Positions 34,914 to 56,777 of a stretch of DNA of 64,000 bases are shown here, one piece after another (the stretch's first letter is position 1; the number at the start of each line of letters is the position of its first letter). Source of the DNA: Aotearoamyces nothofagi (lineage: Eukaryota > Ascomycota > Leotiomycetes > Leotiales > Tympanidaceae); the NCBI GenBank assembly GCA_015345905.1, contig JADDTR010000006.1:372001-436000 (forward strand). The letters run 5' to 3'. The notes under the pieces were generated by a model that did no database searches, was not told the origin of the DNA, and saw nothing but the letters and a program-made list of their open reading frames with translations. The position numbers and the translations under genes were made by a program.

Positions 34914-36922
34914 TTAGACAATGTCCTTCGCCTCTGCTTCTGCAGGCAAGACACTAACATTCTGAACCTTCTGTACGACATATTCTTCATCATCATACAC
35001 CAGTGTCGGATCATCAATCGTATCTCCAACCTCCAGCCACTTGTCACTGGTCGCCGGGACGGGCGAGATCTTGCAAAGAATCCAATAACCGGCCGCGGAG
35101 ACGATAAAGCCACAGAAGTAGTTTAGTTTATAAATATACTGTGCGCCCATCGGGACTGCTTTTCCGCCTGTAGGCTCGGTGACTGCGCCGACGAAGCCGA
35201 CAATGTTGACTAAGATGCCGGCTATATAAGCGGCATAGCCACGCCAGTTAAAGCCGAAAGTGTAGTAATAGGGAGATGCTTTGCGGGCCGAGTAGAGGTC
35301 CTTGATTTGAAGGTAACCGCGGCGAACGATGTAGTAGTCGCAGATCATGACACCGGCGATTGACGAAAGGAAGACGGCGTAGGCCGAGAGATAGGTTTGA
35401 AAGTTGTTGGAAGAGGCGACGATCTTCCAGGGACACATGGCAAAACCGACCACGGCACAGACGTATCCACCACGGCGGATGTTGATGTAGCGTGGGAAAA
35501 GAGCGGTCATGTCTGTTCCCTGGAGGGTTTTAGCGGGGGAGTTTTGGAAAGTAGAAATGCTGAAAGGAGACTTACGGCAGACACAGAGTTTGCGGCGATA
35601 TTGGTACCGAGCTGCGCCAAAGCAAATGCGAAAGAGATAAAGAATACGCCGGCGCGGTTGCCGGCGGTTCCTTCATCTAGAAACGAAGTTAAGAGGGTGA
35701 GAGGGTTCCAGATTGGGTCGCCACCGAAGATGACAACGGAGGCGGAAGAAACCATTATCCCGATAAAGGAAGTAAATGCAAAGCCAATGGGAACGGCCAA
35801 GAGCTGGGACCATAGAGCATCTCTGGGTTTCCGAGCGAAACGAGAGAAGTCGGGATCTGAAGGAGTCAATTACTGGGGAACTTCTGTGCTGGTTCTCAGG
35901 AGTAGTTACCATTGACAACAAGAGTGGCAAAGTTAGCAATTGCCGACATGATGCCTTTAACTATTGCCCATCCTAAAGTGCTACCGTAAATGGTGTTCGG
36001 CTCGCGGGCAACGGGGCCAATACCGTGAGCTCGAACGAGAGCCCAGATGAAGAAAGCAATTCCAGCTGGTGGTACAACGTATGCTTTGACAGTAAAGAGA
36101 TGCCTGATTTGGTGCACATGTGGCCAAATCGCAGGCAGAGAAAGGAGAGAGAAGATGAAGAATGATATGAAATCACGAGTCGTGGTTCCAGAGCTTGCGG
36201 GTAGGCCGTTATGGAGTGTCTGGTAGGAGGGCCAGATGGCGCTGATCATGAGGGTGATACATTCGCCACCAAGCCAAGCTTGGACTCCATACCATACGCA
36301 AGCCATCGCTGCTCTATTGAAGACAGGCCACAGAGATCCCCATATACCGAACGATGCACGGCTAGTGACAGGAAATCCGATGTGATATGTAGCTCCGATC
36401 CGACCAGTCAGGCAGATGAAGGCTCCGGCAATACTATATCCGATCCATACACATAGCCATGCCTGCCACCACGACATGCCAGCAACCACATTGGTGCTAG
36501 ATATCATCCATGTATTCTGCAAAGAGGATCTTTTAGCACGTGACCAGCATAGCCAAGAAACGAGCCGAAACTTCTGGCGAGACAGAATTGAAAATTGAAA
36601 ATCAAAAGTAAAGCACTTCGTTAGAGATTGAAATCTCTATCAAAGCCATTGAACATTAAAGTAAACTGTCCAGCTTACGATATTGAACGAATCTGCAATC
36701 CAGAAACCGACGAAGTTCCAGGAACTCCATTGGCGACGGGCAGGCTCGACTGTACTTAGATTTAGTCTGGGATTCAACAATGCAACGCCCTCTCACGAAG
36801 GTCATACCAGGCTTTAGATCCTCATTCGTCAGCATCAACTGAGCCGTGGCTAGGCCCGGTTCTGCGTCGACAGCAATCCTGTCCAGGAAGCGACGGCCTT
36901 TGGCAAATCTGCTGGTCTTCAT
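34914..36922 (-). CDS. NCS1-family nucleobase/hydantoin-type permease (Fur-like)
   Basis: Five exons on the minus strand, 36922-36808, 36749-36679, 36516-35910, 35856-35576 and 35519-34914, give 559 residues. NCS1 carriers are twelve-helix, cation-coupled importers of uracil, allantoin, uridine, hydantoins or related compounds at the plasma membrane. The Fur-type signature is present: [19 protein letters not shown], then ADSFNINTWMISS at helix 1 (joined across an intron), [22 protein letters not shown] in helix 3, and [14 protein letters not shown] before helix 7. [11 protein letters not shown] and CPWKIVAS follow. The C-terminus is acidic (DDEEYVVQK) and cytosolic. The substrate cannot be told from sequence alone. 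The position 3.8 kb from a hydantoinase-containing gene group suggests a cyclic amide or ureide. Confidence 0.92.
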
Positions 36923-39900
36923 GGCGACGGCAGATACTGAGAGGGTTATTTTGATAATCCTCTTGCAGGACTATATCTCGGGCTCTTACGTGTAAGGTAA
37001 TTGATGCCAAGAGCAGCCGAACGACAAGCTTGGGACGACGTGTAGAGTCGCCCAAATCAACGGACGGAAGCAAGTCGGGCAAGGTAGTGCATCACCGGTG
37101 CAACAACACGAAGAATGGGAAGTGGAGACGCAACGGATATATAACAAGGAGGATACAGCTATAGTTTTGGCAAGGTATGTTATGGAAGAGGTAGGTATAA
37201 GACCATACAAAACGACACGGAGAGGGGATGTGAAGGGATATATATACGGTAGGATGGAAGAATTCGTCGAAAGCGTGCCCACATCTGGGATCCCACCACG
37301 CGATCAGCACGGTCTCCGGTCTAGCAATGGGGCCATGGACGCGATCTCTTATCTTCGATACCCAAGGCACCAAGGCACCTTAGTCTGGAGGCGGTCCTCT
37401 CACGCGCAGCAGGTGAAAAGGCACGAGACGGACACCGGAAGGGCCAGGAACAAGTGCCTAAACCGACAACGGGCCCGATGGCGTCCAGATAGGGATGATA
37501 ATGTCCTTGAAGAGGTACTGCAGCTAGGGACAAGAAAGACCTTGACGGGCCTCAAGAGCTTAATACCGTACTGGAACGGGCTTTAAGAGCTCGATTCCTT
37601 ACCGCAACGAGCCTAGAAGCTTGATAGCGTCCCGTAAAATGCGAAAGAGTTCATAAAGCCATATTGTAGTCGGCTGGTTGCACAACTCGGCGGGACGGCA
37701 AAAGCCACCATTGGCACGCGCCGTGGCGTGCATAATGAGACGCATTCAAGGCCTGCCATTGGCTAGGACGAGGGCCACTTCAGTGCACGTATGTAATAGC
37801 CAGTGTAGGACCCTTATAAGTCAGGAAGGCACCGGCACGTGCCTTGGACTTCGCGGGCAGGTGCGGAATACTAAGACTGCAAAGGGACATCTCCGGGCCC
37901 GTTTTTTCAAAGCCCACAAAAAGTGGCCGTTTCTGGCTTATAATAGATAATTCGATTGATTAAATAACTGCACGGCTTCGAGATATATATTCTCTTGCAT
38001 ACGCAGTATATAGAATTTAGTTTTGGGGTCAAATTAGCCTATTCCGGATATTTCTTGCACAGACGGCAGTCCCTGCACTGTTTGGCTTACTTGATTGTAA
38101 GGGTAACTATCCTAGCTGGCGATCCAGCGATAAGGCTGGCCGGCATTGACGTGATACGAGATAGAAACTCGTGCAGGTTTATTTCTTTCAGCGCCAATAG
38201 GCCGTAATATGCCGTCCCACAGTAATTATCTTTTGCAATCCTCACGTGACATCAAAACCCCACAGGGCCCCCATATTTAGCCCACCCACGCTAGACCGGC
38301 ATGTGACGCTTATCGTAATCCCATCGAGTAAAAGAGCACAATCGGCCGGGTGGGCGTCGACCGTCTTTCTGCATCGCAATCGCGAATTGCGAAGACTTGG
38401 CTTTTGATTATGGCTGCCGGAGAGACCGAGCCCTGAGGCAGAACCCCTGTTCTTTGCTAGGGGATATACATATATATGTATTGATATCACGTGATTAGAG
38501 TGATGTACCTTAAGGATGCCTGCTGCCTAGATAGGCGTTGTTTGGCTTGATGGACTGGCTACCTTGCGCAGTCGGACAGCCTGGGCCCGACTATGCAGTC
38601 GAGATGTAAGACGATTTCCAGCTGGCCAACAGCAAATGGTAGATGACCGATATATGACTACCTCTCATATCTGCCTACTCCCCGTGCGCGTCATATGCAA
38701 AATGACGACTGGCGGCATTGGCCAGCGGTTGATATCACATCGGAGCCACCTATCTTGAGATCTGACGTGCAGTTGCAGTGCTGCTGGCCCGGGATTAAAC
38801 CGCTAAATCTCGCACCTGGAATAGCCATTAAGACTGCATTTGCATCAGCATTAGTACCAGCATCAGTATCGCGTCCCACCCGAGTATTCTGCAGGACGTC
38901 GGCTCGACCAGTCGGAAAACACATGGCCATGCGAAGATGACAAAGACCCTTCTGATTCTTCAGTAACGCGGCTCATAGACATGTTTAGTATGTATGACGA
39001 GGCAATATGTATAGCCTATTCTATATTGCCGCAAATGGCAGGATCAAACCTCAACGAACCGGCCGGTGTTCTCCTTGAACATGGGGCCAAAGATCAGACG
39101 TGCCTCTGTTCGACCACAACCAGTGCCTTGGTAGCCTGGTTTGAAGCTAGGCTCCCATGTGTGCACCTGACCCTTCTGAGCGATTCAGCCCTACCGTGGG
39201 GCTTCTTCCTTTCCACTGTTTGTCCGAGGGAGCACACCATCGTTTCTCAGCCTCATCGCTGCCCACGCCGACTGCACATACAGTATTCTCGTCCTTTTCA
39301 TCATTGGACAAGTATACGAGTGAATCGGAGGGTCCTTTCGCTCTGGCAGCCTAATCGCTGCATGTTCTCTCCAGCCTCTCTCGGGGAGAGCGCTTTGTTG
39401 ACTCTACCTGGGTAAAAGAGCCGGACTAAGCAGTTTATTACAAGTCGAGGATCACTGGGTGGGTTCGACAATCTTCCATTGTTCACGTATTGTTGCGTGG
39501 AAATAGGACTTCCGATGCAACCTTCCTATCCCGACAGCTTCCAGGTATGGCAGAGTGCAAAACCTGGATATTGGGGGCCAGCCTCAATGGCCCCTACAAC
39601 TTACCATGTCATGCAAGCGTACCCCAAGCAAGGATTGCATATGTTTAAACTAGTCATAGGGCTACAATCAACTAACTTTCACAGCCCTAGGCATCCTCGA
39701 CGGTGAGTATGCACCGCCCAAATGGTATGCACACCATAATTGCCGCGCAAGCGTCCCTTATACGCAAGGTCGCATCATCGTTCCATAAGACTGCATGCAA
39801 AGAACATTATTTCAAGCGTTAGAATGGCAGACACGGAGGAACATTGTTGCCAGATTTGGTGTCTACATTCGAGCTTTTCGACGCGGTTATAACTGCTGCT

Positions 39901-40680
39901 TTGCAGACGGGCATAGAACACATGATCACGGCTGACGAGTGGGTACAGCTTCGCAGACCCATCCGTGTCAAACAATCCCAGTGCAGCCAGCATCTTCTAG
40001 TGCCCACACCTTCACCAGACCCATCCTGTGGACCTCTAATACTACCTACCGGTGACCCCGAATGGGAGATCAACCGGTACAACAAACCGTTCCTAACGAA
40101 TCACATCCGGAATGCCCTCTATTACCCGTTGGGCAGGGTTCCTAGCCGGCTTCTGTGATGACAAACCTCCTGAACTCATCGGTGAACCCGATAACTATGC
40201 TACACACTATCCCGAGAGCCTCAAGGCAGATACGGCAAATGCTAATCCTAGCCCTCAAATAGCATTTCTCTACTCAAGTTTTGCTTAGATTCAAACTGTT
40301 ATTCGTGGGAGATATTGCTCGCTAGGATTCGAGTTCTGATAGTCTCGAGTGTCTTGCGTGATTACAGCATTTGCTACTGCCGTGTTTAGCAGATCATTTG
40401 ACCGCTTGTTCTTTCCTAAAATCAGGACGATTGCTCAAACACTTTTTGTCACGGACCTAAATTGAGTCAGAGAATGCCTAAAGTTGAAATCACCGCTTGC
40501 TCTGTTTATTCGCTGAAGACGTTTATAGTGCAACGTGAGAATATCCACGTGTGGAGTGGCGTAGAATACAGGGTATTACGGCTCCAAACAACGGTGGCAA
40601 TAAAGTAAAGAAGGAGGAACCTCAACGTAGAGAAATACCAAATATTGTAAAATCTAGCAGTCTAGCTATCGGCAGAGAAA
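36923..40680. other. Long gene-poor region
   Basis: The 3.8 kb are the largest gap in the window. The left part is the permease promoter, with one AGATAAG-type GATA site on the minus strand at 37348-37353. A short 31-bp tandem repeat is at 37554-37640. Open frames at 37098-37586, 38981-39415 and 39844-40158 look protein-like in composition but match no family I know; the last could be a gene remnant. Four CACGTG words occur (37836, 38243, 38488, 40546). No transposon was recognised. Confidence 0.45.
37554..37640. repeat. Imperfect 31-bp tandem repeat
   Basis: Two full units of 31 bp (37554-37584 and 37585-37615) begin AAGAGCT and carry a central TACCG and an ACG-GCC end. A third, truncated unit starts at 37616 with GAAGCTTGATAGCG. 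A related AAGACCTTGACGGGCCTC precedes them. It lies in the gene-poor region and no function is apparent. Confidence 0.45.
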
Positions 40681-41786
40681 ATGATGAGGATTGTCATAGC
40701 AGGATCTGGTGGACTTGCACAGCATTTCGCTCACTTCATTAACAAGACTGCTCATCGCTTTATAATACTTTCAAGGGCAGTAAGTCTTGATATCCGGCAT
40801 TACCAGTTTGCTTGCTTGGCTCACGAGGTGCGCTAACTATGCAACAGCCAAAGCCGCTCCTCACAAACGCTGGTTATCAGGTCGTGTTGGTCAACTATAA
40901 TGACCAAGGAGATCTCCAGTACGCCCTTCAAGACACAGATCTTGTCATCTCCACCGTCTCAGGAGTTCCTCAGCTCAACCTCATCGATGCTGCTTCTCGC
41001 TCTAGAGTACGCCGGTTCGTACCTGCAGAGTTTGAAGGCCCCCCGACAAGGAGATCAAGCAACGACCCACTTGATCGAGGCCGAGCGGCATCACTTGATC
41101 TGCTACGAGAATGCACACGTAGTACAACCCGTCGCCCGATGCAGTTCACTACCTTTACATGTGGCATCTTTTATGAACGCTTCGCTCCTGGTGGACTTGC
41201 TTCTAAGGGCGTTGGCATCGGATCTGGACTAGAACATCAGGGTGCTTACTTGCTGGATATTGAACATAATACTGCCGAAGTCATTGAATTCACTGCCACT
41301 AACCAGCCTGTACGGCTCTGCATGACCTCTATGAGCGATGTTGCACGCTTTCTCGTTGCAGCTCTTGATCTGGGTATCACGAACTGGCCTCCTGAATATA
41401 GGATCAGCGGAGAACGGAAGACTGTTACGCAAATTATTGAAGATGCTGAAGCTGTCAAAGGAAGTCTGTACCCTTGAAATCCTTTGCTGCTTCTCGTTTC
41501 CTTTTCTTTGTTTTTTCCTTCGTCTCACGTCTTTTTAATTGTCACTGGGATGCTAATCCTTCTCAACACAGCCGATTTCCAGATCGTCGTCTACAATTTA
41601 GCAGAGTTGACACAACACCTCCAATACGCACTGAACTATCAGAATCACCCGAGAGCTCTGAAACTACAAGCAATGATCGCTACTGCAAACCGCTACTACG
41701 ATTTCTCAGAACCGACGCTGAATCAGCTCGTCAACATCCAGCCAACGGGTTTCAGAGACTGGCTGCAACGTAACTGGAGCACGTAG
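40681..41786 (+). CDS. NmrA/isoflavone-reductase-like NAD(P)-binding protein
   Basis: Three exons, 40681-40779, 40848-41463 and 41572-41786, give 309 residues. The protein starts with a Rossmann strand and glycine motif (MMRIVIAGSGGLAQHFAHF), followed by DLVISTVSG, SRVRRFVPAEFEG, and a substrate-domain segment FTCGIFYERFAPGG. This is the atypical short-chain dehydrogenase branch that contains isoflavone reductases and the NmrA redox sensor. The SRVRRFVPAEF segment is where the catalytic Lys of active reductases usually follows; here it is not obvious, so a reductase or an NAD(P)-sensing role are both possible. The second intron (donor GTCTGT) is inferred from phase and from DFQIVVYNLAEL matching the family C-terminal part. 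It is the first gene of the proposed catabolic group. Confidence 0.82.
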
Positions 41787-42722
41787 GAGTGTTGAGTCGA
41801 CGATGCTTTAGTGCATTACATATATGACTGCATAAATCATTTTTTTATGTTGCTTCATTATATGATGCGCCCTGCCCTGGTGGTCGAGTATGAGTGGATA
41901 TGGGCGTATTATAAACATTTGCGTGTCTCTAAGATTATTCTTCACTCTACAATTACTCAACGTATGATGACTTAATGATGGAATGAAGGGTATATGTCAC
42001 CTGCTACGGATCCCCTGCCTATGAGACCCATTACTGCTACCTCTAAAGAGTCGTAGCTAAGGGTAGCTTCCACTCCCTAGCGGAACTTACAACTGTACTG
42101 TCCATTGGTTGACCTGTCTGCTATACTCTCCAAACAGTAATTAGTACGTTCAGCAACCACAATTAGTGCCTTCAGAGGTTTATGACTATCACACTATACT
42201 CTTGATTTAGTTAATTATAAGTTCATTTTCCTTCTTCACAGCTCACTAATCTGATGCCCCATTATATAGCTATTGCCCACAGGCCCATAGAGGGAGAAGA
42301 AGTGACTGATACAACCAGTGGTCTGGATAAGTGGCTAGCTGATCTTCCTGGCAAGAGCAAAATATTTGGGAAACGCTACGCGGTCCTTTGCCATCTTTTG
42401 AAATAGGAAGGGGGCGGTGATGAGGAGACGCTTGACGATGAGACTGGCGGTGGCGAGAACTTCAAAATGCCGGGTTGTAATTTAGGGCTTGGTAGGTTTA
42501 TGAAACGCCTGCTGGTAGCGGATGTCGACTCTGAGTTTCTAGAAATGCATGCTTTTGCGGTGACTAGGTTTCTGTGAACTAGGCTGGTGATAGATCCTGT
42601 TATACCTACTGATTTCTTAGATGTTATACGGAAGCCATTAGATGATACTAGTCCCTTTCATTTATATAGAATACGGGCTTTATTATACATCAGTTAACAG
42701 CATCCCGGCCCTTCCAAACTCT
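41787..42722. other. Convergent intergenic region with a possible gene relic
   Basis: The left 450 bases are AT-rich and empty. From about 42270 to 42640 the plus strand keeps stretches with coding-like composition, but not as an intact gene. I read this as a decayed gene or element fragment of unknown family. It lies between the 3' ends of the NmrA-like and the lyase genes. Confidence 0.35.
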
Positions 42723-44432
42723 TCACCGGATCCTTTTCACAGAAACCTCCGCAGCAGGCCCCTCGCCGTAATCTCGCACAGCAATGGTATCGAAGAAGGC
42801 ATCCGCCAGATAACTGCCGCAGTAACTCGCCTTCTCAAAGCCATCTGTCAGCGGCACCGTCATCAGCGCAGGCGTCTGCACTTCTGCGATATAACCTTCA
42901 ATACCCCTCTCGGCCCAGAGCTTCGAAAACTTCTCGGCATGGTAGTTGAGGCCCTGGAGACACCAGATTGGCTGGACCTGCCACACTACGCCTAGCTTGG
43001 CAAGGTCTGATGGCAGCAATTTGATGGCGTCGGGCGTGAAACCGGCTTTTGCGTAATCGTAGTCGCCGGTGTAGCCGAAGGCGAAGATACGATCGGGGTA
43101 GACGGCGCGGACCTGTTCGTGGAATGACGAGATGTCTTTCCAGTTCGGCAGGTCCATGCGTGCCCATGTGACGTCGCCGAGGGGCGCGGCTGCAATTGCA
43201 CGCTCTACGATAGCTTTGACGACGGATTTGTAAAAGTACTGGCCCTCGCGAGAGCGAGAGAGGTCCCAGTCGAAGAAGACCGATTTGGAGACGGTGTCTG
43301 TTGCTATTTCTCGCCTGGTCTTGAGGGATACAACGCCGGTACCGAGCTTGGAGATGTAGGCTGAGTATTCGGATTCCGATGCCACTTTCTTTACGGCTTC
43401 ATCAAAGGTCGAGAGACCGGAATCCTCGATCCATTGCTTGCGCACTGCAAGTAGAGAGACGCCACCGGCTTCAGAAGCTTCTTTCAGAGTGTTTATAAGA
43501 CTCTTTATTGGAACTGTGGCGCCTTGCACAAATTCGTGGTCACGAGGATCAATCACATCAGTGATGAATTCGGAGTGGTCAACATCACAGCGGCAGAGAA
43601 TCAGGGTTTCGGTACTACTTCGAATTAGAATAATATGTTTATTATGAGAATCGGAGCAATCACCCCATAATATCGATTTGCAGTCGTGCAGCAGTCAGAC
43701 GGTCCAAATACTCACCAAAAGGAACAATTGTCCGTCCTTGGCCAATCGTAAACTTCTTCTTACCAGAAGCTAGATCATCTAAATGGAACATGGCCACACC
43801 TGCCTCGACAAAGGCCTTTGTCATCTTAATTGTAGAGGTAAGACCACCAAAGCCCATATCTCCATCTGCAACAATAGGGGTTAGGTAATCCCAGTTTTCA
43901 AGCTCCGCACGCTTTTCTTTGGGATGTAACATCCGGAATTGATGCTGTCTCTGGTCGTGCCATTGTTGTGATCTGAAGATTTTGTCGACGACCTTTGGCA
44001 CAGTATCCCAAGGGTAATCGGCGTGGTCCATTCCTGCTTCTTGAACTTCCGAGAGACCGCAGAGTGCGCCCGAGACGTATAAAGATTCTTGATATTTGGC
44101 CATTTGAGAGGCGATAACCGGATCGGTCACACCAAAGGTCAACTCAGCTGTGCCATTGACACGGTGCTTGTTAAGTTGGTCCCAGAGCTTTATAGCCTGG
44201 GTACTAGAAGCGTACTTTGAAGCGAGGGTTGATCGTAGGGATGCAATTCTTGCTGCAGAATATGGCCTGTAGACCGACAGATGTCAATACCGAGACTGGT
44301 AGAGTATAGTGTTACGTCTTCGTACCGTTGAATATGTTTTTGTTTTGGAGTTTTCCACCATGCTTCGATTTCTAATACAGTAGCATCAAAAGCAGCCTGC
44401 TCTTCGTCTACTGACTGCTGGATGCGTGGCAT
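42723..44432 (-). CDS. Isocitrate-lyase-family protein with a non-canonical catalytic loop
   Basis: Three exons on the minus strand, 44432-44326, 44266-43664 and 43617-42723, give 534 residues, the length of fungal isocitrate and methylisocitrate lyases. The barrel signatures are present: RPYSAARIASLR, then TPIVADGDMGFGGL with the Mg-binding Asp pair (170, 172), FHLDDLASG, VPFGEYLDRLTAARLQIDIMG, CRCDVD and DPRDHEF, and the C-terminal WQVQPIWCLQGLNYHAEKF. In an ungapped alignment the loop KKCGH reads KKFTI (206-210), so the catalytic Cys and the His are Phe208 and Ile210. The PEP-mutase/ICL superfamily cleaves or isomerises C-C bonds next to carboxylates. Without the acid Cys, ordinary isocitrate cleavage is unlikely; a different substrate or reaction is inferred. 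It is divergent from the Dal5-like transporter gene. Confidence 0.87.
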
Positions 44433-45270
44433 ACTTTATGGTACTGAGTATCAGAGGACTGGCGAAAAGTAACACCTACACGAGCTCAAAATGATATAGA
44501 GACCTACCTAGAGACTGGGAAAAGGCTTTATAACAGCACAACGGAATAGGACCTCTGATACTCCGGAGTTGTGCTGAAAGATATCGACAAAGCTTGGACC
44601 GACAATTGGGTCCGTACCTACGCATTGTGGAGAAGGATGCATTGGAGTTGAGCATTACTGAGAGCAGTGCTATCGTCCGGAGACGCAGTCGGACTCAGGC
44701 CCTGCGGTACTGAAGTCCGATGGCTACCATACTTATTCCTATGGAGTCTAAGCCTAACAAATGACAAGTGATGTAGATGTCCGTGAGACAAAAGCATGGA
44801 GACGGGGCGGTTCACGTACCGCCCCGGATGGCGCTAGTAATAAAATGGCTGATAAGCAGGGCCTGTCGTGGAAATCAACGCCGTCGGGCTACTTCGCCGA
44901 AGATGTGCAACATGCAGCATTATCTCGGAGTCGTGCAGCGAGTACCTAGCCATCTCTAAGTCTATTGTAGAAGGTAGGCAAGTAATGATTCTTATTGGCA
45001 ACATTTATTATTGTGTACTTGCCCGTTGATAACAACGAACTACGTACCCACTCTATCAAGTACATCTCCTTCTGGCTCTGGATAAGCCAAGCCCGAAGAC
45101 CTAGTTAGGGAGAGATGTGGCCTATGTAGTTCTTGACTTGTCGTTTGTGCAGCGTGATACAAAGTCAGACTACATTCTCCAACTTTTAACGAATAGCACC
45201 TGAATATAATTTCCCATACAACACAATTAAATCATTTCGCGTCTGTGATTCGTCCCTGAGAATTGTCAAC
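44433..45270. other. Divergent promoter (lyase homologue / Dal5-like transporter)
   Basis: The 838 bases separate two divergent genes of the proposed cluster and probably hold shared control sites. TGATAAG at 44850-44856 and TGATAA at 45027-45032 fit GATA-factor sites, but that number is expected by chance. Confidence 0.45.
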
Positions 45271-46860
45271 ATGTCTTTGGATAAAAAGGAACAAGACATC
45301 TCATTAGCGACAACATCCTCAATCGTCAAAACCGGAAAAGCCGTAAATATCGATGATGGCGGTGATATTGCGGCTGCATATGCTGATCGTCTCGAGGGCG
45401 AAAATGCCTACACGAGAAAGGAGGAAACCCGACTTCGATGGAAGTTAGACCTGCGACTCGTACCGATTCTTTGGTTTAATGTAACCTTGGGTGCAATGGA
45501 CAAAGTCACCACCGCTACAGCTGCTCTTTACGGCTTGAAAACTTCTACTGGTCTCACAGGAGACAGATACTCCTGGGTTGGATCCGCATTTTACTTTGGA
45601 TATCTAGTCTGGTGTCTACCTTCTGCTAGCATCCTACAAAGATTGCCAATAGCAAAGACGATGTGTGGAGCACAGTTTGTTTGGGGTCTCATCCTAATCG
45701 GCACGGGATTTGCTCGTAACTTTGAGACTCTAATTGCTCTACGTGTTTTGCTAGGTGTTCTTGAAGCTCCTATTGTCCCGGGTAACTTATTGATAATGGG
45801 AATGTGGTACTCCCGACGGGAACAACCTCTCAGGGCGGGACTGATGTACACTGGTCTCTCCGTTCTCTTCACAGGTCCTATTGGCTACGGCATTGGTTTC
45901 ATTTCCGGTACTGGCAGTTGGCGATGGTTCTTCTGGATTACCGGCATGATGACTATTGCTTGGGCACTCGTTGTTGGAATCTTCCTTCCTGACAATCCCG
46001 TTAAAGCAAAATTCATCACGGAGCGCGAGAAGGCAATTGCAGTCGACAGAGTCAGAGCTGATCAGACTGGCATTGAGAATAAAACTTTCAAGAGGGAACA
46101 GATGATTGAGGCCTTCCTAGATCCAAAGACTTGGATGATGTTTCTCTTCAATATCTGGATCAGTATACCTAATGGAGGACTTACGAACTTCGCACCACTC
46201 ATCATCAACGGTCTGGGCTATACTGCACAACGGTCAACCCTCCTCACAATGCCAACTGGTATCATTCAAACCGTTTCAAGTTACATGTGCAATGGAGGTG
46301 TCTTCCTTCTTGCAAAATATCTCCCAAGACACCACGCCCGTGGTGTGGTCATAATTATGGGATGCATAGTAGGCATGATAGCAGCTATTTTCCTGTACAC
46401 TCTGCCTTTGGATAACCTCTATGGACGTCTTGCTGCTCTCTACATGTCATACTTCTATCTCGGTCCATATATCGTAGCATTGAGTATGAATACTGCAAAC
46501 ACAGCGTAAGTACTGATCCCTCGAAGCAAAAACGGTATAACGGTTAACCTCTTCAATAGCGGGCACACGAAAAAGGTTACAACAAATGCACTCATTTTTA
46601 TCTCGTATTGCGTATCCAACATCATCGCTCCTCAATTTTTTAAGGCAGACCAGGCACCTCTCTACGTGCTCGGTATGGGCGCTATTCTAGCATCTTACGC
46701 CTTGTCAATCTTTACCGTCACTGCATACTGTGGATATTGTGCCTGGGAGAATCGAAGACGCGATCGTCTAGACGAGGCAGCAGGAGCCAGAATTCACGAG
46801 GATACGGATTTCAGGGATCTAACGGACAAGCAGAATATCCATTTTAGATATGTATGGTAA
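45271..46860 (+). CDS. Major-facilitator transporter, Dal5/allantoate permease family
   Basis: Two exons, 45271-46505 and 46560-46860, give 511 residues. The twelve-helix layout of the anion:cation symporter branch is clear: RKEETRLRWKLDLRLVPILW before helix 1, the helix 2-3 region YSWVGSAFYFGYLVW, RVLLGVLEAPIVPG in helix 4, WYSRREQPLRAG, and a cytosolic loop with LPDNPVKAKFITEREK. The second half has WISIPNGGLTNFAPLII and the C-terminus ends FRYVW, a family habit. Yeast Dal5 imports allantoate, ureidosuccinate and dipeptides; relatives import nicotinate, pantothenate or biotin precursors. A carboxylated amide or ureide is the likeliest cargo given its neighbours, but the substrate is not shown by the sequence. 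The splice join (GC|C) restores NTANTAGHTKK, a conserved segment. Confidence 0.9.
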
Positions 46861-48079
46861 CCCGACTAGGAATAGGGGTCTATATTACGCCTAAGATCTA
46901 GATAGCCGAGCAAAAAGCAAAAAATGGACTTGCGGCCTTGTGGAGTGAAATAATAAATAAGAATAAAAAGAAGAACAAAATGGCAAAAGAAATCCACCAG
47001 TCTGTACCAAAGGGCAACAACTGAAGGAAAGAAACTCAACCGGGGCGAAGGGCGGCCGCCGCCCCGGTTCGGTTTACTTTTTCCGGTGTATGCATACGGG
47101 ATGTTGCGATGCTAGGTAATCTGGTGATCACCCGGCAAGCTCGACCCCGCTGCACAGCCGGTGGGAATATTCAAATAAATCGCTAGGCGAGATTCTGTCC
47201 ACTCGACCACTCGGCTGTTGAGGGTCTTTTGGCTTATTTGGTATTATGTACCTTCGGTGTGAAGGTTTCGGAAGTGAATATGAACTGGCGCGTCAAATCG
47301 AAGCGAATGATTTTTGACTCTCAGACACGTGGCGGGTGGTGGATAGAGGTCCTGAAGAATTAGATACCTTTATAGCGTTCCTTATATTATATCCTACTCT
47401 TCGATACGGGCTGATTATGATATCGCATACCTTTGAACTGGATCGATGCGGATGAAGCAACCCCTATAGGCAATGCGAAGACAAATAGATGTATATCGAC
47501 AAGGCTAACAAGGCTAGCCTTTCTACATTTCCACATCCACCAGAATAAGGTAACCATCAATAATGGCCCTCGGCCACTTCCACACCTTTACTGTCGCTCG
47601 CCGTCGGCCCTCAACCCCAAGTTAGGTACAGTACTTACCCTGAAAACCCAGTGAATCTTGTCCGATAGCCTAGAAACCCAACTCTGGCCTATCTTAGAAC
47701 CAGACCCTGCTCTAAAGATATAAAAATCAAGGGAGTTCAGAGAGTATCGCGCGCTTCGGTGACAAGCCCGATGCATGTCGTCGTTGATATTGATGCGGCA
47801 AACTGCCGCCGTGGGTCCGTGCTTAGATATGCCAGATCCACACAAAATTGCTAACTCCGAAACTGTGAGATAAGGAAATAAGGTAAGCCTATCACGGGTT
47901 GAGTCATAAGAGTTTTGATATCTAAACATATTTTCATAGAGCATGAAGCCCTTTTGTGTCAATTATTCGTGATTTTCGATACCTGCTGTCGTTTTTAGAT
48001 AGATGATAGCCTCAAAAGGGCATCATTTGTATCTCTCGTTCTTATCGGTCCTCTCTTCTGCTTCTCAGGGACGCCTGTT
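46861..48079. other. Intergenic region
   Basis: The 1.2 kb lie between two plus-strand genes. A GC-rich inverted-looking patch (GGGCGGCCGCCGCCCCGG) sits at about 47050-47067. The minus-strand open frame 47588-47962 shows no family resemblance. The last 150 bases lead into the amidotransferase gene. Confidence 0.4.
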
Positions 48080-49064
48080 ATGGCTTCCCATCTCCGCATC
48101 GCGATCCTGAATGCCGACACGCCTGTCCCAAACATCCATGCTGTGCGTGGGCGGTACAGTGATATCTTCTCGACATTGATCAAGGATGGTGCCGCGGCAT
48201 CGCCAGATCTCGCAGATGTAGAGTTTACGTTTAGTCATTATGATTCCGTGCTTCAGGAACTACCTTCAGATAAGGAACTGGAGAATTTGGATGCGATTAT
48301 TGTAGGAGGCTCGGGTGAGAATCGATTAAGAAAGAACATGACGGTGTTGCTTTGCTGACTTTGAGGAAGCCGCGTCAGCGTACGAAACTGCTCCTTGGAT
48401 CATCAACCTCTCGCAATTTATACAGAGTAAATCTCTAGTTCCTTTAGCCAAACTCTTGCTTTTGGAATATCTCGCTGATAGTACCCTAGATATTTACGCC
48501 ACACATGCACACATTAAAATATTTGGTGCATGTTTCGGCCATCAAATCGTCGCCCATTCTCTCTTCTCTCGTCCTGGGCAATCAGTTGTTTCACGTGACC
48601 CCTCAGGCTGGGAACTCGGCGTCCACTCAATCACTTTGACCCCATCATTTCTCTCACATTTTGGTCCCGTGTCATCTAATCCGGACTCCCCAGACCAACT
48701 GAGGATGCAATTTGTGCACGCTGACCATGTTGTGCTCCCTGTGATACCCGAAGGTTTCAGCTCTATCGGTCGTAGCGAGCACTGTTCTCTCCAGGGGATC
48801 TATCAACCAGGAAGGGTGTTGACGTATCAGGGCCATGCGGAGTTTGATCGTTTTGTGACTGCCGAGACGGTTAAAGTGTTCGGGAGGCCGATCTGGGAGC
48901 AAGAGTTTATCGAGAAGGTGTTGGAAGAGATCGAGAAAGATGATGACAGTGTATGGGCCGCACAGGTGATGGTGAAGTTCTTTTTGGAGGACGTAGTTGT
49001 TAAGATAGAGGGCATGGAGGAGAAGGTGATAGAAGAGGAAGTAGATTTACAGGCAAGATTGTAA
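48080..49064 (+). CDS. Class I glutamine-amidotransferase-like hydrolase
   Basis: Three exons, 48080-48314, 48370-48426 and 48490-49064, give 288 residues. The fold is that of the stand-alone class I glutamine amidotransferase/gamma-glutamyl hydrolase type. The nucleophile elbow FGACFGHQI places Cys112, and the catalytic His213 and Glu215 lie in TYQGHAEFD. The N-terminal strands ILNADTPVPNI and DAIIVGGSG (the oxyanion glycines) are intact. Related fungal proteins are annotated as GMP-synthase-like amidotransferases, and the yeast relative is of unknown function. It may hydrolyse a gamma-glutamyl amide or release ammonia. Both introns are phase 1 and the small second exon carries the SAYETAPWI segment typical of the family. 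The tail after 260 is acidic. Confidence 0.86.
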
Positions 49065-49687
49065 AACTTTATGAGCGATTTAGATAGACATTAAAAGATA
49101 GAAGAGAGGGCGTGTCAAGTGACACTTAATGGAAATAATCAAAACACTTGACCTTAGTAGTAAATGACCTTGATTCTTATAGCTCCTATGCGCAAGCTTC
49201 TGAGAGCATGACTCTAAAAAACTTACTGTTGAGACTCCATTGTCGTTGCTGTTAGACCATCAGTTGCATTGATAGTTGTAATGGCGCTCTAGGGAACCCT
49301 GTGAGGGCCTTTAAGGACCCGTCAGCAATTGCAACTGACTCGCTAGTGTTATCTACACCTTGTCGGCCCACGACTCCGATACAGCTGGCCTCTCGGACTT
49401 GGATCATCATCCGCCGAGGGAACGGCATCTGCAGTCACAAGAATGCCCAACTTATCCTACTGGGTATTCCCGACAGGTCCCATATTTCGGAGTTCCTCAT
49501 AGCTGCTATCGTAGCATGCCCCACGACTTTAGACAGGCACATCGATTAAATCGGGGAAGCAGCTTCTACGTCATCGCGGCATGAGTAGTATGAATGACTC
49601 GGCATTCTTCGTAGTTTATGAGCGAACATAGCAATTATATATCTTGAGTGGTTATTTTCCTACGCCTCAACCAGATTGTTATTTGAT
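49065..49687. other. Intergenic region upstream of the oxoprolinase gene
   Basis: The 623 bases separate two plus-strand genes. No conserved frame, RNA or repeat was recognised. Confidence 0.4.
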
Positions 49688-52600
49688 ATGCCTTTCGTAG
49701 GAACTCCACCTCCCGAAGCTGCGTCGGCAGGCATCCAGATTGCTATTGATCGAGGAGGAACTTTCACGGATTGCATCGGTACTAACATTCCTGGAAAGGA
49801 TGACATTGTGGTGAAGCTTCTAAGTGTTGATCCGTCAAATTACGGTGATGCTCCAACTGTAAGTCACTTGCGGACTGTTAGTTTGACTTGCTATTAAAGT
49901 TTAGTTAGGAGGGAATTAGGAGAATCCTGGAGTTTGCAACTGGGGAGAAGTTGGCTCGTGGAGAACCTATAGATACAACTCCTATTGCATCTATTAAGAT
50001 GGGTACGACAGTTGCAACAAATGCTCTGTTGGAGAGATCATCTGAACCTTGTGCTTTGATCGTAACGCATGGGTTCAAAGATCTCCTGAGGATTGGAGAT
50101 CAGACCCGACCGAAGCTATTTGATTTAAACATTCGAAGAGCGTCTCCGTTATTTAAAGATGTCTTAGAGATTGATGAGCGAGTAACCCAGGAGGAATTCA
50201 GTGAAGATCCCGCTCCGAGATCAGTAGCTGAGCTAGAAGCAATTACTGATGATATCGAAGTCGTAAAAGGCATTGGCGGAGAGTTGATTAGGATTCTTGA
50301 ACCACTCAGTGAGTACCTCAAAGAAGACCAGTAAAATGATTATAAACTTACCGTTTGATAGATATCGCAAGTACTCGAGAAGGCCTACAAAAGTTGTATG
50401 ATCAGGGCATCCGGTCATTAGCTGTAATACTCCTTCATTCATATACCTTTCCCAGACATGAGTTGGCCATTGGGAGACTTGCGGAGAGCATCGGGTTTAC
50501 ACAAATATCTCTTTCATCACAGCTATTGCCAATGATTAAAGCCATTTCTAGAGGCCATTCTGCAGTAGCAAATGCCTATCTTACGCCAGTTGTCAAAAAT
50601 TACATTGACAGCTTCCGTGCTGGATTCATCGGCAAATTAGAAAACAACAATAAGGGTACTCGTTGTGAATTTATGCAGTCGGATGGAGGACTAGTAAGCT
50701 GGCAACGATTTAACGGACTTCGAGCAATTCTGAGCGGCCCCGCAGGTATGATAACTGTCTTGTTACTGTATGTGGAAATCGGTCATTAACGCTCTTCAGG
50801 GGGAGTTGTTGGCTTCAGCAGAACTTGCTACGACGAAGCCACTAAAACTCCCGTTATTGGATTCGATATGGGAGGGACTTCAACCGATGTTACAAGGTAC
50901 GCTGGTATCCTAACTCATACTTTGGAAACCGTTATTGCTGGAGTGACGATCCAATCTCCGCAACTTGAGATAAACACTGTTGCCGCTGGTGGTGGGAGTA
51001 TCCTGACCTATCGGAATGGCCTTTTCAACGCTGGACCACAGAGTGCTGGCGCTCACCCAGGCCCACGTTGTTACCGGAAGGGAGGACCACTTTGTGTTAC
51101 GGACGCCAACTTAGTTCTTGGTCGTTTATCTGCTGAGCACTTCCCTAAAATCTTCGGGCTAAATGAAAATGAGCCTCTGGACTACGCAGGATCACGCAAA
51201 GCATTTGAGGAATTGACAGAACAGATCAATGCAGACATAAAAAAGGCCGGTGGAAATACTCTATCTATCGAAGAAGTTGCCTTGGGCTTCATACATGTAG
51301 CAAATGAGAGCATGTGCAGGCCAATTCGACAATTGACAGAATCCAAGGGTTTCAACACTGCTGACCACAATTTAGCTTGTTTTGGGGGAGCTGGTGGGCA
51401 GCATGCTTGTGCAATTGCAGAACGTCTGAAGATAAAGAGAGTCCTTGTTCACAAGCATGCGTCTATTTTAAGTGCATACGGAATGTCGCTGGCAGATACC
51501 GTGCAAGAACGGCATTTACCAATGTCTCATATCTACAAGGACTCGATCATAGAGATTTTCGAACGCCTCGATAAACTCCAAGACCAAGTTATAGAGGATC
51601 TTGGGTTGGAGGGCTTCACTCCTGAACAAATTGAGTTCGAACGCTATGCAAACTTGCGCTACTCTGGTTCAGACACGACTATCATGATTATCCAACCAGC
51701 TGACGGTGACTTTGCTGCTGCATTTATCAAAGAACATCAAAGAGAATTTTCGTTTATGTTGCCTAATAGGGAGGTATTAGTTGAAAATCTTAGGGTTCGA
51801 GGACGTGCCAATCACGTTGTTGTATCCTCGAACAAGAAGACGATCACTGGCGAGCTTTCTTCTTTGACTACGAACCCAATCGATGTTACTACGGGAGCCG
51901 AGGTCCTCCGTGTCTTCTTTGAAGGGGGCTGGGAAGAGGCACCTCTATTTCTATTGAAGGATAGAAATCCTGGAGACGTCATCGTAGGGCCTGCTATGAT
52001 CCACGACGAGACTCAGATGATTGTGATCCACCCAGGAACTATTGCAACAATCCTAGAGGCTCATGTTGTGATAGATCTTGAATCAGAAGCTCATGCTCCA
52101 AAGGCAGCTGCTTATTCGGGGACTATTGTACAAGATCCTGTTACTATTGTACAAGATCCTGTTGAACTTTCTATCATGTCTAATCGTTTCATGGGAATTG
52201 CAGAGCAAATGGGATTAACTCTACAGCGTACGAGTGTGTCAGTCAATATTAAAGAAAGGCTTGATTTTAGTTGTGCTCTTTTTGGGCCAGATGGTGGCTT
52301 AGTTGCAAATGCGCCGCATGTGCCAGTGCATCTTGGGAGCATGGAGCATGCTGTTCGATACCAACATAAGCTGCATGCTAATAATCTTCGTCCCGGAGAT
52401 GTTCTCGTTTCCAACCAGTAAGTAATACTAGTATCTACCTGCGTATGGATAATTAACCAAAAAATAGTCCTCTAGCAGGTGGCACGCATCTACCGGATAT
52501 TACTGTCATCACACCAATCTTCGATGGTAAGGGAGAGAACATAAGTTTCTACACAGCTTCACGAGGTCACCACTCAGAAATTGGCGGAATACTTCCCGGA

Positions 52601-53945
52601 TCCATGCCTGCTGGAAGCACTAAATTGTATGAGGAAGGAGTGCAAATTAAGTCTATGTTCCTTGTTCGAGATGGACGTTTCCATGAAAAAGAAATCTCCA
52701 AAGTCCTTCTTGAAGATACGGCGTCATTTCCAGGCTGCAGTGGAACCAGGAGGTTAAGTGACAACTTGAACGATCTTGAAGCTCAGATCGCTGCAAACTA
52801 TAAAGGTGCTACTCTAGTACACGCACTAATTGAAGAATGTGGCGCCGAGAAGGTACATTTTTATATGAACGCTATTAAGGACAATGCTGCAACGGCCGTG
52901 AGATCATTCTTAAAACGTACCTATAAGCGTTTCAAAGGTCGGCCATTGACCGCCGTAGATCATCTGGATGATGGAACGCCAATATGTGTCACCATAACAA
53001 TCAACGGAGAAGATGGTTCGGCCAAGTTTGATTTCACTGGTACAGGTTTAGAGGGATTGCATTGTTTCAACGCGCCTCCCGCAATCACTCGTTCCGCATC
53101 TATGTATATGTTACGATGCATGATCAACGAAGATATACCTCTAAACGAGGGTTGTCTTATACCCCTCGAATTCGTTATCCCTTTTGGTACAATCCTCAAC
53201 CCAAGCGGTACTGCAGCTGTGTGTGCTGGAAACCCAATAACAAGCCAACGAATCACTGACGTCCTGATCAAAGCATTCCAAGCATGTGCTGCAAGCCAGG
53301 GTGACTGTAATGTTTTCTCTTTCGGATTCGCTGGTAAGAAAGCAGGTACAGGAGTAGGCTTCGGTGAAACCATTTGCGGTGGATCCGGTGCTGGAGATGG
53401 CTGGCACGGAACGAGTGGGGTTCACGTCCATATGACAAACACCCGTAAGAACATTTTCCGAAGAAAATTTGAAGTATTATTGACTTCTTCACATAGGCAT
53501 TACTGATCCTGAAGTTCTCGAAAAGAGGCTGCCAGTTATCCTCCGACAGTTCGCGCTCCGGGAGGGCAGTGCAGGAGTTGGATTGTATAATGGAGGCATG
53601 GGAGTTGTGCGGGAATATGAGTTCATGCGACCCTTAAGTTGCTCGGTATTAACTGAAAGACGAGTGTATCGGCCTTTCGGTTTGTTTGGGGGCGGCCCAG
53701 GGAAAAGCGGTCTTAATACTCTTGTCGAGAAAACACCGGAAGGTGAAAGACGAGTTAATGTTGGTGGAAGAAAGGACTTCACTGTTGGTAGAGGAGACAG
53801 ATTGATCATGGAAACACCTGGTGGTGGTGGATGGGGGGTCCCCGGATCAAGTGCTAAGAAGGTTCTGCATCAGCAAGACGGCATTTTCTCCTTTCCTCCG
53901 GGTTATATTAACTCATTCCAGCTGATGCAGGAACAGAGTAATTAG
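49688..53945 (+). CDS. 5-oxoprolinase/hydantoinase (HyuA-HyuB fusion)
   Basis: Six exons, 49688-49858, 49909-50308, 50362-50745, 50800-52417, 52468-53444 and 53497-53945, give 1332 residues. The enzyme family hydrolyses 5-oxoproline or hydantoin-type rings with ATP in the cytosol. The HyuA half (about 15-720) begins with the nucleotide-binding DRGGTFTDC, and includes [36 protein letters not shown] and [14 protein letters not shown]. The HyuB half (about 750-1310) has [31 protein letters not shown], then [10 protein letters not shown] and the [13 protein letters not shown] metal-site region, [12 protein letters not shown], and [10 protein letters not shown] near the end. Length and order match eukaryotic OPLAH. 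A 21-bp exact tandem duplication adds TIVQDPV twice near residue 745, between the two halves. Whether the substrate is 5-oxoproline or a hydantoin is not decided; a cluster setting with two permeases favours the latter or a relative. Confidence 0.93.
52122..52163. repeat. Exact 21-bp in-frame tandem duplication
   Basis: The unit ACTATTGTACAAGATCCTGTT ends in an identical copy (52122-52142 and 52143-52163), giving TIVQDPV twice in the linker between the HyuA-like and HyuB-like halves of the oxoprolinase gene. Identity of the copies suggests a recent slip. Confidence 0.9.
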
Positions 53946-54505
53946 AAGCCAAGGAGTTTTGCTGTCCTTGTGTGCACAGCTCGATCTGGAGAATATGCTT
54001 ATTAGACGTTAATATCCTAGAGCACGTATTAGTGTTGATGTACTTTTGTAGTACAAAAATAAATCTTAGTTGAAGATGTAGTGCCTTGGTGGAGTGCATG
54101 CTCTCCCATTTTCCCCTCATAATTATTGTTGTCCCACTCTTCCACCTTTATTTCCCTTTTCCGTTCTCAATAAGAACAAATATACTGTTAAATATCTTTA
54201 AATAACAATATCCATCTAATCATTAGGAAGCCTCGAATACAATACAAGTGCTTGTTGATTGAAATGCCACGTGACTATTACCTAGGAATATGCGCGATCA
54301 TGAGGATGATAAGCCCTCCTTATCGCCCCACTCTTGAGACCTTGATGGTGGCTTTTATGGCTACACAAGAACGTGTCAACCTATACTCACACGCATCAAA
54401 CTTTTGAAGATATATGAAAGCACTATAGCATCTCACGTGGTCCGAAGTAATCACAAGTCGAAAAGCAAATTAGTCTCGTGGCTAGCATGCTTGAGTGACA
54501 CCAAC
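53946..54505. other. Intergenic region upstream of the Zn2Cys6 regulator
   Basis: The 560 bases hold two CACGTG words (54268, 54434). An in-frame ATG at 54404 would add 34 residues to the regulator, but 54506 fits the family better. No other feature was recognised. Confidence 0.4.
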
Positions 54506-56777
54506 ATGCCAAGTCCATCGGAGGTCAGGTACCGGCAATCGGCAAGTGCACCTCGACGGAGAAAGAAGGCGTGCCGAAGATGTAGAAGTCGAAAGCAACG
54601 TTGTGATTACCAAGAGCCGATATGCCAAAATTGTAGATCGGCTGGCGTTGGTGAGCTTCGGAGGTCCTTCCAAGGAGGGCATATCAGCTGACTTGCCGTG
54701 AATAGAATGCCTACCTGTCATACAAGAGGTGTATGAACAACACCCAGTGGGGTATGTGCAATCACTAGAGCAACATGCAGCAATGTTAGAACGGGCCTTG
54801 AACCGGCAATATCCTGGCGCAGCTCCAGATCATCTCGATGCTGTACAAGCTCAATATCTAGGTATTGAACCAAACGGGGTATCACCTCACTCTGCCGGGC
54901 AGCTCCAGTGGCAAATAGCACACACAAATCATTTGGCAGATGACCCTTTCCAGGAAGATATTACAGCAGATTTGTGGCGCGATACAGATGCCTTTATGGA
55001 TTTGAGAGGTCTCTCTCACTCCAGCTCTGGAGATGCCATTGACCACTCGGTATCACCATCCTTAAGGATAGCAGAGCCTAGCAATCCTCGTAGCAATTTT
55101 ACCACCCAGCCCGATCAAATACCTACTGTCACAGCAGCATCATTCTTCCGGACATATTTTCAAGCAATACATCCCCAATATCCATTTTTAAATGTAAAGG
55201 ACTGTGGAGACTGGTTTATGGAATGGAAGACGGGGGCTGCAAATGCTTCCATCAGAGGTTGGCCAGCTTTTTTTGTCAAAATGGTATCAACTCCAATTAC
55301 GTGTTTGCCGTGCTATACTAATGGGGCTTAGATTTTTGCAATAGGATCTCTGATCCAGTCAAAATCAGATAACGCGCCTCGATATCAACATCAAGATTTG
55401 AAAGCGCAAGCTCAGGCGGAACAAACCATTATCACAGATTCGGGATCAACACCACTTATTAGGATGCAAGCAATGCTACTTTCTGCAATGCATGCCCTCC
55501 ATAGTGAAAGTACGTCGCGTATAACCCACATTACAGGAGCAATTGTTAGATTTGCTAGTTTGCACGGTTTTCACGTACTGGTAAATTATGGAACTGAAGA
55601 AAGTTTGATGAAAATAAGGGTCTGGTCTTGTGCATACATGTAAGCTTTCTGATTCATTTTGAACATTTGTATTGCAAATACAGCTATAACATCTCCTATG
55701 GCCTCTCTGGCAGGGTTTGCCATTTTGTTTTCCTCTTGTGGGAAACCAAAATACCCACTTCTTAAACGGTGATTAAATAATCTATTTCACATGTTGTAAA
55801 GTGAGAATCTTATCATATTGGTAGTTTCCTTCTTACTAATTCTGATTGTAGACTCGATAGAGCTGTAAGTGGCGTTCTTGACGTACCTGTAAGCCTGTCA
55901 GACATGTATATATCTTCGCCGATATATCAAGATGAGCCACAACCGCCATACTCAATGCCGTGGCTTGCGGATTGTCCTCCATGCGAACAAATACAGGCTC
56001 TTCCCAACCTGAGTACCTTTGCACATGTCTGCAAAATTCGCGTTTTGCAATCATATATCCTACATACGTTACAATCAGTCTCGCTAAAGGATGATGCTAC
56101 TCCTGAATGGCAAGAAAGGATGTGCCAGGAGGTAGACAACTGGGCGCGAGCAGACGAAATTTATAGCCATAGGTACGTGTAGCGTAATACCTGAATGATC
56201 CTAGCATTCAATAGTTTAAATTTGGGGATGTGGTTTGTCACTGACCAATTTATTAAGCTTAATGGACAATGATGGCTACCAAAGTCCCCTCTGGCTCCAA
56301 CTGATCAGCCAGCTCTCCCGCCTCCTATTTTGCTGTCCGAACAAATCCAACATCCACACAGCCGTAAGCGACGTCGCCCTCAAAGCAAGCTGTGATGCAT
56401 GCACCATATTTCGCGCTCTCCAAAAGAAACGCCAGATAGCTCAGCCATGGCTCGTTGTGATTTCCCAATTCCAAGCCGGTGTTACCATCTACTACATCAC
56501 CTGGTCTCGCCGAGCATCCATGTCTCGGCCGGTAGACGTTGCGAGCCGTGACTGCACGGCCGTCTTGGCGATCTTCGCAGACCGCTGGCCAAATGCTGAG
56601 CATTATTGTGCTTGTCTCGAGGTCCTTGCGAGAGCGGTACCGAGGAGCGCGGGGCATTTGGATACGCAGGATAGAGAGGAACTAGCGGTACTGACAAAGA
56701 AGGTTGAGGAGGCTGGAATCCATAGAGGCGTGGCGAGAATGTTGTGGGAGATGTGTGCGGGTGATGATGATGGGTAA
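54506..56777 (+). CDS. Zn2Cys6 transcription factor with fungal-specific TF domain
   Basis: Five exons, 54506-54650, 54706-55283, 55332-55639, 55852-56172 and 56258-56777, give 623 residues. The DNA-binding binuclear zinc cluster is KKACRRCRSRKQRCDYQEPIC then QNCRSAGVEC, with spacing CX2CX6CX6CX2CX6C; its last Cys is supplied by exon 2, which supports the first intron. A short coiled segment (GYVQSLEQHAAMLERAL) follows, then the middle homology region from about 180: TAASFFRTYFQAIHPQYPFLN, FAIGSLIQ (joined across the third exon border), RVWSCAYILDRAVSGVLDVPVSLSD. Such factors are nuclear regulators that often control the metabolic genes beside them. Its place directly downstream of the oxoprolinase gene makes it the candidate regulator of the 40.7-53.9 kb group. 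No binding site was identified. Confidence 0.9.

Follow-up and report, generated by a model that had tools for sequence, protein, structure and literature searches.

Gene content of the locus

The window analyzed in this study is a 64,000-nucleotide stretch of the Aotearoamyces nothofagi genome (contig C6, positions 372001 to 436000; the genome comprises 25.5 Mb in 55 contigs), and it holds six neighboring genes, among them one for a HyuA-HyuB fusion protein (HyuAB), which are considered here as a candidate catabolic cluster. Genes were spliced by eye at GT-AG introns without transcript evidence, the last two introns of the regulator being the least certain. After hand splicing, all six gene models were complete and uninterrupted, and all six had Pfam matches; each family named in the initial annotation was thus found in its claimed place. 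The genes for the NmrA-like protein, the isocitrate lyase (ICL)-like protein, the importer, the glutamine-amidotransferase-like (GATase-like) hydrolase, HyuAB and the Zn2Cys6 regulator are oriented plus, minus, plus, plus, plus and plus, respectively. The features are as follows, with positions counted from the first letter of the window.

40681..41786, plus strand: NmrA-like/isoflavone-reductase-like protein, 309 amino acids (exons 40681-40779, 40848-41463, 41572-41786)
42723..44432, minus strand: ICL-like protein, 534 amino acids (exons 44326-44432, 43664-44266, 42723-43617)
44433..45270, no strand: divergent promoter region of the ICL-like and importer genes, 838 bp, with CGGN9CCG at 44705 and 44885
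45271..46860, plus strand: major facilitator superfamily (MFS) importer of the anion:cation symporter (ACS; Dal5) type, 511 amino acids (exons 45271-46505, 46560-46860)
48080..49064, plus strand: class I GATase-like hydrolase, 288 amino acids (exons 48080-48314, 48370-48426, 48490-49064)
49364..49378, no strand: CGGN9CCG site upstream of HyuAB (extended TCGGN9CCGA)
49688..53945, plus strand: HyuA-HyuB fusion of the 5-oxoprolinase type, 1,332 amino acids (six exons: 49688-49858, 49909-50308, 50362-50745, 50800-52417, 52468-53444, 53497-53945)
54506..56777, plus strand: Zn2Cys6 regulator, 623 amino acids (exons 54506-54650, 54706-55283, 55332-55639, 55852-56172, 56258-56777)
34914..36925, minus strand: NCS1 carrier (PF02133; approximate extent, incompletely spliced)

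The observation of this gene set is sound apart from the promoter geometry. Both enzyme genes at the left end and the importer gene had been described as sharing one divergent promoter; this holds for the ICL-like and importer genes, and the NmrA-like gene, on the plus strand, is instead convergent with the ICL-like gene.

Active sites of HyuAB and the ICL-like protein

HyuAB matched PF05378, PF01968, PF19278 and PF02538 (the HyuA N-terminal, core and C-terminal domains and the HyuB domain), in every case above the cutoff. It is one of four full-length fusions in the genome and was 57%, 56% and 51% identical to the copies on contigs C5, C2 and C18, respectively. In a tree of these proteins the C5 and C2 copies paired with a support of 94/96, slightly below the mark set by the tool; the C2 copy is the one that we take to be most like yeast OXP1. 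Open reading frames (ORFs) of 555 to 800 amino acids with partial HyuA-domain matches were also seen at C14:553196, C30:39496 and C5:597880, and no HyuB match to accompany them was listed on C14, on C30 or near C5:597880. A search with six peptide patterns, which was of low sensitivity, retrieved bacterial relatives at three Bacteroidota loci (36 to 37% identity), where the other five proteins of the set had no match at an E value of 0.01.

Motifs, metal ligands and pocket residues were mapped from CapAB and CapB as given in the accessible part of PMC8453981. The ATP motifs (at residue 21, DMGGTSTD at 341 and GAHPGP, of the form GxxPGP, at 402) and the Asp-His-Asp-His metal ligands (D807, H865, D868 and H892) were retained, in agreement with the proposal that HyuAB belongs to an ATP-dependent family that opens cyclic amides. 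These motifs and the HyuA and HyuB domains are shared with the known ATP-dependent lactamases (OXP1/OPLAH, HyuAB and CapAB), and the two halves are fused as in eukaryotic 5-oxoprolinases, whereas the pocket positions described below are altered. Of the original label, oxoprolinase/hydantoinase, the fused 5-oxoprolinase type is upheld, and hydantoinase specifically is not.

Positions that were identical and ungapped in five reference rows (the C5 and C2 copies and the three bacterial relatives) were taken as invariant. Among these 391 positions, 49 were altered in the window HyuAB and 70 in the C18 copy. When positions up to two residues from the CapB pocket were considered, the window protein was altered at 9 of 42 invariant ones, compared with 14 of 154 in the rest of the HyuB half (P = 0.03), and the contrast was stronger in the C18 copy (16 of 42 versus 18 of 154, P = 0.0002). 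Both copies were altered at 21 common positions and carried the identical new residue at 10 of these, including the nonconservative changes V1110C, Y1157G and T1178V, all of which lie at the pocket. Changes lining or flanking the pocket of the window HyuAB comprised, besides these three, G1111A, V1114P, N1140V, F1154V, Y1156F and P906A, such that segments of the pocket common to the C2, C5 and three bacterial proteins were not kept (VVGGNV to VCAGNP, NN to NV, GYYET to GFGET and HTHM to HVHM). The segments may be markers of 5-oxoproline use, insofar as this can be read from five references known by sequence. Thus, the window and C18 proteins may be two copies with shifted specificity; for the window copy by itself, the case is borderline. 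Because the pocket is altered, the substrate should not be presumed to be either 5-oxoproline or hydantoin.

The ICL-like protein passed the curated TIGR01346 model (361.8 bits versus a cutoff of 275.9). The KKCGH loop nonetheless reads KKFTI (K206 to I210) when aligned with the two solved fungal ICLs that scored best, which bears out the altered active site noted in the initial annotation, and compared with the Aspergillus nidulans enzyme (1dqu) the N-x-S-P-S loop is replaced by G-x-T-G-D. The family profile and residues D116, D170, D172, H197 and R246 are shared with isocitrate lyase and 2-methylisocitrate lyase, most of the metal-side residues being kept, and both loops differ from theirs. 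By motif position, the equivalent of Trp93 is Ala103 and those of Glu182 and Glu285 are Asp, and the succinate-contacting Asn313 and Thr347 (Mycobacterium tuberculosis numbering) are replaced by Gly418 and Pro453; the mapping of residue numbers to motifs between the two species is one that we presume to hold. The M. tuberculosis residue list, including both succinate contacts, is found in the accessible part of PMC8099091, and the KKCGH numbering is found in that of PMC5430663.

Two orthodox ICL genes occur elsewhere in the genome (on C2 and C8). Their products keep both KKCGH and N-x-S-P-S, and the canonical ICL of the genome scored best against solved ICLs from what we take to be filamentous ascomycetes; together with the spliced genes and the Zn2Cys6 regulator, this assigns the genome to that group. 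No relatives of the ICL-like protein were found in viral contigs. Judged by sequence, the protein is a third, remodeled member of the family, and since both loops are gone while the two orthodox ICLs keep them, it should not be called isocitrate lyase. Because the curated cutoff is passed although the catalytic loop is gone, the name assigned automatically would be wrong, as would metabolic models built on it.

The best family of the importer was TIGR00893 (219 bits, under its cutoff of 395), and its only solved matches were D-galactonate transporter chains. The GATase-like hydrolase contains C112, H213 and E215, presumably its Cys-His-Glu triad. Its nearest solved relative was gamma-glutamyl peptidase 1 (9k7i and others), which is alike in its class I amidotransferase family and in the Cys-His-Glu residues, with a match of only about 61 bits. 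The NmrA-like protein matched PF05368 (37.8 bits; cutoff, 27) and PF13460 and weakly matched A622-like reductases in the PDB (E = 0.001). The regulator matched PF00172 and PF04082 and carries CX2CX6CX6CX2CX6C at C23 to C50.

A candidate catabolic cluster and its alternatives

We propose, with a probability of about 0.42, that the six genes form a catabolic cluster, so far undescribed, through which a small carboxylated cyclic amide (a lactam or ureide) is used. This reading is unproven and is the best single one; co-regulation, the order of the steps, the substrate and the reaction of the ICL-like protein are what we infer. In this scheme, the anionic substrate would enter through the Dal5/ACS-type carrier. 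HyuAB would open its ring in two stages, ATP-dependent activation of the amide by the HyuA half and hydrolysis by the metal-containing HyuB half, whose pocket would be re-shaped away from 5-oxoproline. The gamma-glutamyl-peptidase-like cysteine hydrolase would act on the opened chain, freeing nitrogen or an acyl group. The ICL-fold protein would, via its retained Mg-side residues, cleave or rearrange a hydroxy- or oxo-acid other than isocitrate. The NmrA-like protein would serve either as a reductase of an intermediate or as a sensor of NAD(P), and expression of the set would be turned on by the Zn2Cys6 protein. In a bolder version, an undescribed fungal pathway would couple the ATP-dependent lactamase and its re-shaped pocket to an ICL-fold enzyme that is active despite the loss of its family's catalytic cysteine loop and that cleaves a substrate new to the superfamily; this version is unlikely. 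What is new on firmer ground is the remodeling of the two enzymes, above all that of the ICL-like protein.

A precedent for a 5-oxoprolinase-type enzyme of other specificity within a catabolic cluster is the caprolactamase of Pseudomonas jessenii, which belongs to the 5-oxoprolinase family, has no 5-oxoproline activity and is encoded in a lactam catabolic cluster (PMC6061476, accessible part). That cluster is bacterial, has split subunits and includes an aminotransferase and a dehydrogenase, whereas the window has ICL-like, NmrA-like and GATase-like proteins. The nicotinate hxn clusters of A. nidulans resemble the set in serving fungal catabolism of an N-heterocycle and in their MFS carriers, divergent pairs, ring-opening hydrolase and own regulator; they differ in the HxnM imidase, the HxnN amidase, the oxidoreductases and the C2H2 regulator HxnR (PMC8478523, accessible part). 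In the accessible text of PMC9304392 the terms "oxoprolinase" and "isocitrate lyase" have no occurrences, nor do "oxoprolinase," "hydantoinase" and "isocitrate" in that of PMC8478523, which, together with the C2H2 type of HxnR, fits the earlier statement that the set does not match the nicotinate clusters. Allantoinase, allantoicase and ureidoglycolate families were absent from the window ORFs scanned, which were part of those present, and the genome was not searched with such models. Searches of the open-license literature for this gene set or its parts gave no paper on the set among the matches listed, which is no proof of absence.

The C18 HyuAB (C18:101001-121000) has an alpha/beta hydrolase gene and a divergent ACS-like MFS gene upstream (seven ORFs of these surroundings were compared with Pfam and seven with NCBIfam, two being common to both) and, with its similar pocket changes, is possibly at another specialized lactam locus. 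The ORFs scanned around the C5 HyuAB (18) and the C2 HyuAB (15) included no MFS match. In Cryptococcus, the DAL5 homologue CNAG_06875 is reported in PMC7067042 as VNI up-regulated in vivo and in PG medium, and a gene with a nearly consecutive tag is given there as showing VNI up-regulation under the CSF and MP conditions; from the near-consecutive tags only, the two genes may be adjacent.

The uninterrupted run of six metabolic and regulatory genes that ends in the Zn2Cys6 regulator argues for a cluster and, equally, against the possibility that the six are independent accessory genes, with separate roles and no common pathway, that are neighbors by chance. We consider the latter a serious rival, if on the unlikely side, and a series of observations speaks for it. 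Spacing inside the set is ordinary (gaps of 560 to 1,219 bp) and orientation is mixed. The arrangement has no second copy: queries with the NmrA, ICL, Dal5, GATase and Zn2Cys6 proteins in about 20 kb around each of the other three HyuABs gave weak or partial matches only. Importer matches were found at 46 loci genome-wide (the window's own included; our own grouping of 77 matches). The flanks contain further accessory genes, and only three to four of the ten flanking ORFs scanned are plainly housekeeping, which gives chance more weight and makes the six-gene run suggestive only. Other points tell against the cluster in their own right. The NmrA-like gene does not lie on the divergent promoter, the C18 MFS gene was identical to the importer at 31% over 67 residues only and was missing from the genome-wide importer matches, and an amino acid permease lies about 6 kb from the C5 HyuAB. 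The pocket contrast in the window HyuAB depended on the distance chosen, with 6 of 30 versus 17 of 166 positions altered at one residue (P = 0.11) and 9 of 53 versus 14 of 143 at three (P = 0.13), and loss of the catalytic loop could mean that the ICL-like protein is inactive.

The promoter motifs are a further point on the side of chance neighbors. CGGN9CCG occurs at eight sites in the window. The five promoters, which account for 6.3% of its length, contain four of these sites, a concentration that single-pattern shuffles reached in 0 of 200 cases; the family-wise P value was 0.25 (54 patterns, 500 random placements), and a motif common to the set is thus not significant after correction. 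The extended TCGGN9CCGA is confined to the ICL-like/importer promoter and the region 5' of HyuAB; it was noticed by eye and post hoc and serves only as a lead. Among the five promoters, no 8-mer was common to at least four and no 9- or 10-mer to at least three, with shuffles also giving almost none, and GATA sites were not enriched (lowest P = 0.09).

Fungal 5-oxoprolinase-type genes are read as glutathione genes in PMC5737690, PMC7067042 and PMC12735256. The locus might serve gamma-glutamyl or glutathione salvage, with the hydrolase freeing gamma-glutamyl units from which 5-oxoproline forms and HyuAB converting this to glutamate. The relationship of the hydrolase to gamma-glutamyl peptidase 1, the fused 5-oxoprolinase type of HyuAB and the help that Dal5 also gives in the use of certain dipeptides (PMC7067042, accessible part) are consistent with salvage. 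It is the C2 and C5 copies, however, that keep the pocket residues altered in the window HyuAB, and the ICL-like and NmrA-like proteins would have no role, which makes salvage a rather unlikely explanation. Genes for NmrA-like and Zn2Cys6 proteins are common in biosynthetic and detoxification clusters. A secondary-metabolite or detoxification cluster, whose enzymes tailor or destroy a product, is accordingly a further reading, and NmrA-like genes appear in fungal lactam- or lactone-induced gene lists (PMC10512309, accessible part); yet polyketide synthase, nonribosomal peptide synthetase, terpene synthase and P450 families were absent from the window ORFs and proteins given to Pfam, which were part of those present, and we regard such a cluster as improbable. 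Under the cyclic-amide reading, the locus matters as a testable case in which one copy of a 5-oxoprolinase-type gene, multicopy in this genome and in Cryptococcus, would act on another substrate.

Neighboring genes and further observations

An NCS1 carrier about 3.8 kb away had been pointed out as a possible associate, and such a gene is present (PF02133), its end 3,755 bp from the NmrA-like gene. Its only solved matches were entries for the hydantoin transporter Mhp1 (two distinct sequences, E of about 2e-6), which therefore support the family and not the substrate. Since a 3.75-kb gap without a clear gene separates it from the set, its membership is doubtful, and it is more a neighbor than a member. 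Most of this gap, at 36960-40600, is a 3.6-kb stretch that is single copy in the genome and, by eye, has no clear gene in its frames. A transposon was considered for the 37- to 40.6-kb interval and rejected, its only match in the genome being itself.

Among the ten flanking ORFs scanned, TAF8, SRAP and INO80 Ies4 are clear housekeeping genes, and one encodes a SPRY protein. The others comprise two chitinase-like pieces, one DSBA-like protein, one multidomain isochorismatase fusion and two ORFs without a family. The fusion, a frame of 1,006 amino acids at 4468-7488 on the minus strand, is unusual in combining isochorismatase, 2OG-Fe(II) oxygenase and isochorismatase-linked thioredoxin-like domains with a weak GST C-terminal match. 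At 57288-57704 (minus strand), a frame of ANIASLRE/LDGHQK-like units, seen by eye, is probably a tandem repeat. The right boundary of the set is a GH18 chitinase-like gene at 57865-59834 (minus strand), which is in at least two pieces, both slightly under the Pfam cutoff, and contains a long Ser/Thr/Ala/Val-rich stretch.

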